From positions 1-33,507 of the forward strand of contig CAIVBM010000034.1 in NCBI GenBank assembly GCA_903904195.1: a DNA stretch of 33,507 nt, read 5' to 3'. This document shows positions 14,569 to 30,070 of this stretch, piece by piece. This DNA is from an uncultured bacterium. GTDB taxonomy: Bacteria; Patescibacteriota; Minisyncoccia; Phycocordibacterales; UBA9973. Numbering within the stretch: position 1 is the stretch's first letter; each line of letters starts with the position of its first letter. The translations under genes were made by a program, and so were the position numbers. The notes below the pieces were generated by a model, which had not been told where the DNA came from, ran no database searches, and saw nothing but the letters and a program-made list of their open reading frames with translations.

Positions 14569-14629
14569 TTATATTAGCATGAAAATAAACAAAAATAAAC
14601 CAAAAATAAATTTAGTATAAATAGAAAGA

Positions 14630-14683
14630 CCCCGAGAAGCGGAGCTTCCTGAGGTCTGACAAAATTCATATTTACGCTCGGGG
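14630..14683 (-). terminator. Hairpin terminator of the small minus-strand gene
   Basis: CCCCGAG 14630-14636 pairs with CTCGGGG 14677-14683; inner GAAGC/GCTTC; minus strand continues TCTTTCTATTT. Confidence 0.65.
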
Positions 14684-14730
14684 TTGTGTCTTTCTTGTTA
14701 CACATACCCCAGGGTTTTTGTTGATGTTCA

Positions 14731-14982
14731 CTAGACGAACCATGTGATGTTAGTTTCGATCCACCTCTGGACCTCGTCTGGATGTCCGAAGGCCCAAAGC
14801 AAGCCAAGAACCACCAGAACGACAGCGCAACCCAACACCACGTGAGCCCACAAGCAGCCCTCGAACCACTTCTGAATCTCAACGAACAGCTCAATCTTTT
14901 TCCGACCACCCAACCGTCGGGAAATGCGAACGGGGGATGCTTGTCGCGCAGGAGCAACATACGGAGTAGTAGTAATAGCCAT
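14731..14982 (-). CDS. Small single-TM protein (83 aa), unknown function
   Basis: MAITTTPYVAPARQ...HVVLGCAVVLVVLGLLWAF...; GAGG upstream of ATG, promoter at 15009-15037. The longer ORF start would overlap the -10. Confidence 0.6.
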   Translation of the reverse strand: MAITTTPYVAPARQASPVRISRRLGGRKKIELFVEIQKWFEGCLWAHVVLGCAVVLVVLGLLWAFGHPDEVQRWIETNITWFV

Positions 14983-15008
14983 AATTTTGTCCTCAACTTT
15001 CAATGAAT

Positions 15009-15037
15009 AGCATATCATATTATTTTACAAAAGTCAA
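15009..15037 (-). promoter_or_regulatory. Sigma70-type promoter
   Basis: Minus strand TTGACT - 17 nt - TATGCT. Confidence 0.7.
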
Positions 15038-16623: not shown

Positions 16624-16739
16624 GGACTGGACTTTCTCCTAAAAAGGTGTCAATATGGCGGTTGATGTACCTTGGCCTAAACAAACACAGCTCCTAGAGA
16701 GTATTGTGTGGCTAGGAATTGAAAGAGGAGGAGATAACC

Positions 16740-16970
16740 ATGAAGAAAATAATGCTCATTTTGCGCAGGCTGTTGCACCAAGGAAGAGGAGAGGGATTGC
16801 TTTCCCTGCTGTCCGATTTGGGGCGATGGATGACAAAAACCGAGCCACAGAAACCCAAGGATCTTGATCGAGGAGAACCGGGAAGCTTCGTCACTAGGCG
16901 AAGGTTCGTTAATGACCGCCCAGTGACCAACCCCCCCCGTCGTAGACGAATCGCTTTCTTTGATGTGTAA
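16740..16970 (+). CDS. Small Arg-rich protein (76 aa), unknown
   Basis: GAGGAGATAACC-ATG; MKKIMLILRRLLHQGRG...NPPRRRRIAFFDV. Competing ORFs in other frames exist. Confidence 0.4.
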   Translation: MKKIMLILRRLLHQGRGEGLLSLLSDLGRWMTKTEPQKPKDLDRGEPGSFVTRRRFVNDRPVTNPPRRRRIAFFDV

Positions 16971-18729: not shown

Positions 18730-18894
18730 GTGAGTGTACTTGAAGTTGCAATAAGACTCAGACGGGCTTTTATGAGAGAAGCCAAAGCTACGTTCGGAAT
18801 TCAAGTTGCATGGATCGGCAACAAGCTCTGTTTTGTCGATACCAGAAAACCTGTTCCGGACATCCCAATGGTCTCTCTAGGACTACGCCCATAA
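18730..18894 (+). CDS. Small protein (54 aa), unknown; GTG start
   Basis: GAGGAGGAAAGA-GTG; V(M)SVLEVAIRLRRAFMREAKATFGIQVAWIGNKLCFVDTRKPVPDIPMVSLGLRP. Confidence 0.5.
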   Translation: MSVLEVAIRLRRAFMREAKATFGIQVAWIGNKLCFVDTRKPVPDIPMVSLGLRP

Positions 18895-18923
18895 CCCCAA
18901 CCAACTAAAAGGAGAAACAGAAG

Positions 18924-19085
18924 ATGGCAAAAAAGACATGGAGAGAGGAACGAATGGATGAGGTACTGACCGGCAGTGGCACAACCACCAAACGGCCCAG
19001 AAAAAAATCTCGAAAACATAGCAAACCCGTAACTGGGTTGTGGTCAAGAAGGCCAAGAAACAGCCCCACGGACATAACGTATTGA
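18924..19085 (+). CDS. Small very basic protein (53 aa), unknown
   Basis: AAAAGGAG upstream of ATG; MAKKTWREERMDEVLTGSGTTTKRPRKKSRKHSKPVTGLWSRRPRNSPTDITY. Missed by the supplied ORF track because of length. Confidence 0.45.
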   Translation: MAKKTWREERMDEVLTGSGTTTKRPRKKSRKHSKPVTGLWSRRPRNSPTDITY

Positions 19086-23198: not shown

Positions 23199-23510
23199 TC
23201 AATACAGATGAGTTATCGGCATGGCACCTTCTTTGAGCTTCACCGTCAGAATCCTGTTGACAGGGTCCCATCCGGTAATGGTAACTTCTTCCGCAGTGTC
23301 CCGCACGGAGTTGGTGAAAATCGCACTTCCGTAGGAAACCGCCTCCGACCCACCGCTCATCAGCTTCACTTGAGCGACAAGGGCGGTTATGGGTTCGAAT
23401 GGTTGGTCGAAGGTGAAAAGCCTGCCATAGCCGACGACAATCGTAACCTTCTTACTTGGATCTGGGACTTGTCCCGCTGGATCGATTCCAAATGGAAACT
23501 GCTTTTGCAT
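23199..23510 (-). CDS. Small protein (103 aa), unknown
   Basis: MQKQFPFGIDPAGQV...; AAGGAG upstream; own promoter at 23564-23591 and terminator at 23118-23162. Confidence 0.6.
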   Translation of the reverse strand: MQKQFPFGIDPAGQVPDPSKKVTIVVGYGRLFTFDQPFEPITALVAQVKLMSGGSEAVSYGSAIFTNSVRDTAEEVTITGWDPVNRILTVKLKEGAMPITHLY

Positions 23511-29547: not shown

Positions 29548-29878
29548 AAAAAAAGAAGCCGCTCTCCCCAGTACGATGAGCGTAAAGGGGAGAAGCTGGC
29601 TTGCCATTGATGCCTCAAACGAAGCAACTCGTGATTACCTATGTTCCTTGTTGGGTATTACCCTTTGGGACGAACAATAGGTATCTTTCTTATTGCTCAT
29701 GGTTTGGTGGCGATAGGCCGTGTTAGTGGCCTTTGCGCGCCGGTATTCAACCCTGTTTGGGTTCCATCAACCTTTTGGTCTTCAACTCCAATTTAAACAG
29801 AGATCAAACACCGGCGCGTGACTACGAGCTGTATAAGTAGATCTTCATAGTCGTAAAATGGACGCACGAATGCATCCA
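29548..29878 (-). ncRNA. Candidate structured noncoding RNA, ~330 nt, unidentified family
   Basis: Several helices: 29860-29866/29871-29877 (UUCG loop), 29820-29827/29845-29852, 29736-29747/29807-29818, 29716-29719/29728-29731, 29636-29646/29672-29683, and terminator hairpin 29555-29602 with U-tract 29548-29554. Promoter-like TTGCTG...GATATA just upstream. No convincing ORF. Confidence 0.75.
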
Positions 29879-30070
29879 AAAAAAATATATCACAAATAAA
29901 AAAATTACCAGCAAAAACTAAAGATTAAAGTTTTATTAAAAAAGATAAAGATGCTCAAAAATAGTTGGGGGAGCGGGGTTATTGAATATAGCACCGTGTC
30001 GCACAATATATGTTGGTTACCCATACTAGCTGAGGATGCTAGGTATTATATATAGAGTACGAGAATAGAC

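Follow-up and report, generated by a model that had tools for sequence, protein, structure and literature searches.

Genomic context of the locus

The window, which is the whole 33,507-nucleotide stretch of DNA that was analyzed, is part of a genome (G000) of 679 kb in 54 contigs that is assigned to Candidatus Nomurabacteria from its named relatives. The gene order at the locus recurs across the genus and consists of gltX, an M23 peptidase gene, an 81-aa membrane-like protein (M81), a spacer, a convergent 133-aa ORF whose match to Ada-Zn is marginal, rpmA, and rplI, with a dif-like site inside the spacer between M81 and the convergent ORF. In G000 and in RIFOXYD2_FULL_35_12 (G070), the closest sequenced sister species, a structured insert is located between the dif-like site and the convergent Ada-Zn-like ORF; these two genomes are sisters in the M23 tree, with a support of 91/95. 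The RNA stretch lies on the same strand as gltX, M23, and M81, and M81 ends approximately 190 nt upstream of it. The features of the locus are listed in Table 1.

When up to one mismatch is allowed, the dif-like core ACATATATTGTGCGACA is found in 52 of the 80 genus genomes, mostly as a single copy, and a reversed-pattern control yields 0 genomes. We infer that this sequence is the chromosomal dif site. Genes for tyrosine recombinases adjoin the site in several relatives.

Several further observations concern this site in the relatives. Many of them (L072, L076, L079, L086, L091, L095, and L098) carry two hairpins approximately 100 nt upstream of the dif-like site, which contain a second, inverted dif-like sequence and recall the folded attP of CTX-type phages. 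The arms of these hairpins vary between species yet remain complementary, and the arrangement is absent from the window and from G070. Additionally, the motif CTTCCCT recurs 30-60 nt behind the dif-like site (L084, L093, L098, and L100) and in several relatives extends to CCCTTCCC, whose complementary strand reads GGGAAGGG and resembles GGGNAGGG, the KOPS of E. coli; alternatively, the motif could be part of a terminator. In G011, G027, G060, G062, G003, G069, and G103, the dif-like site is oppositely oriented relative to the convergent ORF and M81, as if a short segment had been inverted.

Predicted structure of the RNA

The 331-nt reference on the minus strand folds with an energy of -128.5 kcal/mol, compared with a mean of -85.9 +/- 5.1 for 100 dinucleotide shuffles (z = -8.4), none of which folds as well. 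The complementary strand folds less exceptionally (z -3.9). Consistent with the original prediction that the stretch has no convincing ORF, the minus strand of 29548-29878 lacks any ORF of at least 60 aa. The stems named in that prediction are all present at their positions, both in the sequence and in the predicted fold, and two elements are described differently here. The GC-rich region that had been considered multibranched is predicted by the minimum-energy fold to form one long imperfect hairpin of ~32 pairs (P3), and the 11-bp stem, which is indeed present, is not a separate element and instead forms the tip of a longer imperfect helix (P5).

Table 1. Features of the structured RNA locus in the window
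Feature	Position	Strand	Basis or remark
dif-like Xer site core ACATATATTGTGCGACA, upstream of the RNA	29997..30013	(-)	52/80 genus genomes
Upstream block TGCTGGTAATTTTTTT, -35/UP-like region	29898..29913	(-)	identical in G070
TG-extended -10 (TGA TATATT), six nt before the predicted start	29884..29892	(-)	read from sequence; putative
Structured RNA, ~330 nt	29548..29877	(-)	z = -8.4; no Rfam match
P1, 5' hairpin from the predicted +1	29860..29877	(-)	fold; GGAUGCA-UUCG-UGCGUCC
P2 hairpin, GACUAUGA/UCGUAGUC	29820..29852	(-)	fold
Possible 8-codon ORF MKIYLYSS in P2	29822..29848	(-)	MVIRFYSH at the aligned place in G070; weak
P3, long GC-rich hairpin	29736..29818	(-)	fold; outer 10 pairs compared with G070
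P4, small hairpin, GGCC/GGCC	29715..29732	(-)	fold; one double change vs G070
P5, long imperfect helix with 11-bp stem at tip	29612..29711	(-)	fold
11-bp stem UACCUAUUGUUC/GAACAUAGGUA	29683-29672 with 29646-29636	(-)	fold; tip of P5
Intrinsic terminator hairpin and 7-T tail	29548..29602	(-)	sequence and fold

The window genome contains several families of strong palindromic inserts, some of them inside genes, and the hairpins of the RNA could be a cluster of such repeat insertions with no function as RNA. This origin is very unlikely because comparison of the RNA with its own genome yields nothing longer than 17-nt chance matches; moreover, the RNA lacks the target-derived inverted flanks typical of these inserts and possesses a promoter-like region and a terminator. 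Long inverted copies of the target flank the palindromic inserts (L204:2263, L179:11601, L197:1761, L185:9921, L195:1121, L191:6401, and L192:12801), which resemble the Rickettsia palindromic elements. Elsewhere in the window, four intergenic stretches (14574-15018, 16655-16970, 18730-19030, and 23199-23510) are richer in GC (~0.45-0.5 vs 0.355) and contain small ORFs, several of which are accompanied by a ribosome-binding site and a hairpin resembling a terminator.

Putative promoter and terminator

The upstream block TGCTGGTAATTTTTTT has no further exact copy within the window, and TGCTGGTAATTT occurs one more time elsewhere in the window genome. At the place of the putative -10 element, G070 reads TG-T-TAAACT-N6-G, so that the two copies share a TG-extended -10 and, after a gap of six nucleotides, the G that opens the 5' hairpin. 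A consensus promoter scan and a simple terminator scan listed neither the promoter nor the terminator of the RNA, the latter because its loop exceeds the length that the scan allows, and both elements therefore rest on sequence reading and on their conservation in G070. The earlier proposal that the RNA has its own promoter and terminator thus fits the sequence and the sister copy and finds no counterpart in the simple scans.

The stretch could instead be the structured 3' untranslated end of a gltX-M23-M81 transcript, i.e., a multi-hairpin terminator region rather than a separate gene. The common strand and the short distance to M81 are consistent with this possibility, as is the terminator scan of the minus strand between M81 and P1, which found none and leaves the end of the RNA as the only strong terminator. 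However, the conserved upstream block, the TG-extended -10, and the position of P1 exactly at the predicted +1 in both species would not be expected of a 3' end; such an end is also absent from most relatives, and P1-P5 far exceed the needs of termination. We consider this explanation rather unlikely.

The sister copy in G070 and compensatory changes

The G070 RNA is 256 nt in length (z = -5.1) and lies at the same locus and on the same strand as the window RNA, with 71% identity over 110 nt in the dif-side flank. Its 5' hairpin of 7 bp begins at the predicted +1. In both copies, the 5' hairpin is followed in the same order by P2, a long GC-rich hairpin, a hairpin of 4-5 bp, and a complex helix. 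A T-tailed terminator hairpin (in G070, a GC-rich hairpin and 8 T) closes the series and directly precedes the convergent ORF. The P2-like stem of G070 opens with the same ACTATG, and its closing register differs from that of the window P2.

The RNA sequence itself is mostly unalignable between the two species. The best local alignment, which starts 27 nt into the window RNA and runs across P2 and P3, is marginal, with 26-34 of 1000 shuffles as good. In the outer 10 pairs of P3, three compensatory double changes and one single change are observed, and 0 pairs are broken; P4 shows one double change. When the same number of changes is scattered over P3, all pairs are kept in ~0.1% of trials (chance ~0.001), a simple null that was computed after the hand-made alignment had been chosen. 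In a shuffle control of the P2-P4 alignment, which comprises two hand-trimmed sequences with loops shortened to equal length and is limited by that number, 21 of 500 shuffles reach the observed values. Significant covariation in the GC-rich and the 11-bp stems had been proposed as support for a new family; the former bears double changes in 3 of 10 pairs, and the latter, like the rest of P5, is not alignable. With two homologues, the covariation support is modest. Because of this, and because a covariance model built only on the window copy does not detect its G070 counterpart at significance, the case for homology relies less on structure statistics than on the locus, the flank, and the promoter.

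The local alignment also raises the possibility of a short-peptide gene or translational leader, in which P2 would encode a translated 8-codon ORF and the remaining structure would be regulatory. Within the gapless portion of the alignment, MKIYLYSS and MVIRFYSH have their start and stop in common; four codons differ at one base, always the third; and P1 ends 10-11 nt before the ATG in both copies. A coding role is nevertheless very unlikely, as the window copy has no clear Shine-Dalgarno sequence, 8 codons are very short, and no co-directional gene precedes the terminator that a leader could control.

Orthologous proteins of the window genome and G070 have a median identity of 82%, and the tmRNAs are 91% identical over 400 nt and the RNase P RNAs 92% over the best 156-nt piece. 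Judged by these comparisons, the RNA locus evolves much faster than the housekeeping RNAs of the cell.

Distribution in the genus

Within the scope of the searches, two of the 80 genus genomes, G000 and G070, carry the RNA. The convergent ORF is readable in 50 genomes, and in 35 of these, the search pattern locates the dif-like site on the same side within 700 nt. The gap between the two is 13-102 nt in 30 of the 35 genomes and exceeds 300 nt in five (G000, G070, G033, G068, and G097). The long spacers of G068, G033, and G097 were rejected as copies of the RNA: they are unstructured (z -1.6 to +0.2) and are read as other inserts. For genomes in which the dif-like site is inverted or missed by the pattern, the absence of the RNA rests on sequence reading and covariance searches.

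Searches with blastn, using the window RNA against 60 relatives and the G070 RNA against the 80 genus genomes, returned only self and chance matches. The two-sequence model R1 recovered its two source copies in the genus, which is circular given that it was built from both, and only the window copy among 397 genomes of the order. Model R2, built from the window copy alone, gave no other significant match genome-wide and missed G070 there; its score for the G070 copy was 6.6 bits (E = 2.8 in 49 kb), and at the local loci, its top matches were the dif-side hairpins of relatives, which ranked above G070 and indicate a lack of specificity. The homologue search proposed with the original prediction yielded a copy at the same locus in G070, although not one that the single-copy model finds significant. 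The simplest history is one gain in the common ancestor of the two species. A limited literature search uncovered no description of RNAs of this kind in Patescibacteria.

A clade-specific insertion directly beside a dif-like site may suggest the cargo or remnant of a mobile element that entered via the host Xer recombinases, and the recombinase genes next to the site in some relatives, together with the different inserts between the dif-like site and the convergent ORF in several others, agree with such an entry. However, neither species shows a second dif-like copy at the opposite end of the RNA, the insert carries no mobility gene, and the insertion point apparently lies some tens of nucleotides beyond the dif-like site. 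Searches of phage records gave no match, and those of plasmid records gave one short chance match. This origin is thus improbable.

Comparison with known RNA families

None of the families in Rfam 15 matches the window at the gathering threshold, and hits up to E = 10 are at chance level, as are all those of the G070 copy; the proposed comparison with Rfam hence assigns neither copy to a family. The absence of tmRNA, RNase P, and SRP signatures, which had been noted previously, is confirmed, as no such family is matched and the first two RNAs are encoded on other contigs. The only RNase P RNA match of the genome (RF00010, E = 8e-29) is on contig C20 and not at the RNA locus, and its tmRNA (RF00023) is on contig C38, with no match in the RNA stretch. 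ARAGORN detects no tRNA or tmRNA in the window. Bacterial SRP RNA (RF00169) has no match anywhere in the window genome, and 6S RNA (RF00013) has none in the window or elsewhere in that genome; identity with either is unlikely because the sequence occurs in only two species of the genus. An SRP RNA is expected in the window genome, and a divergent form may be missed by RF00169.

RNase P RNA and tmRNA are similar in length to the window RNA, which matches neither; unlike the window RNA, both are strongly conserved with G070. 6S RNA is likewise non-coding with long hairpins, but it forms a closed rod with a central bubble, whereas the window RNA is composed of tandem hairpins. Intrinsically terminated multi-hairpin bacterial sRNAs share the promoter-like region, the several hairpins, the terminator, the intergenic location, and the narrow range. 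In contrast to these sRNAs, the window RNA has no Rfam family and no detected conserved pairing target, and its fold is kept while its sequence is nearly lost between species whose proteins have the median identity given above.

Interpretation and possible function

The stretch is real, structured, lineage-specific, and outside Rfam. The fold, the absence from Rfam, the insertion at a conserved site, the conserved upstream block, and the terminator hairpins point to a young, stand-alone structured ncRNA gene of Candidatus Nomurabacteria, in which the fold rather than the sequence is kept, and this explanation is favored with moderate confidence. The lineage-specific ncRNA of the original prediction is consistent with the lack of an Rfam match, the occurrence in two of 80 genomes, and the retained upstream block, and the covariation proposed as support for it is found only in part. 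Such a gene would occupy the spacer, in most relatives very short, that separates the dif-like Xer site from the convergent gene, and it would have been acquired, or kept, by the ancestor that the window species shares with G070. Transcription would proceed from the TG-extended -10 promoter, with a predicted start at the 5' hairpin and an end at the intrinsic terminator.

The product may act as a free RNA. Potential antisense targets were sought in the start regions of 406 orthologue pairs, and no joint signal emerged (correlation 0.04, with the best pair no better than permutation); this is a weak negative, as the test covered only stretches that are more than 50% unpaired and start regions of 120 nt. 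Since selection appears to preserve the fold as the sequence diverges, and no joint antisense signal is observed, a role that depends on structure, for instance protein binding or sequestration, is most likely, ahead of a conserved antisense seed. More speculatively, and with little probability, the RNA could represent a new fast-evolving class tied to the dif region, either as a cassette brought or kept by Xer or as an RNA that participates in terminus events.

An RNA gene cleanly inserted at a conserved locus in two sister species would illustrate how such a gene can be born and then drift rapidly in sequence under a kept fold. Additionally, the dif-like neighborhood may serve these reduced genomes as a landing region for accessory genes.
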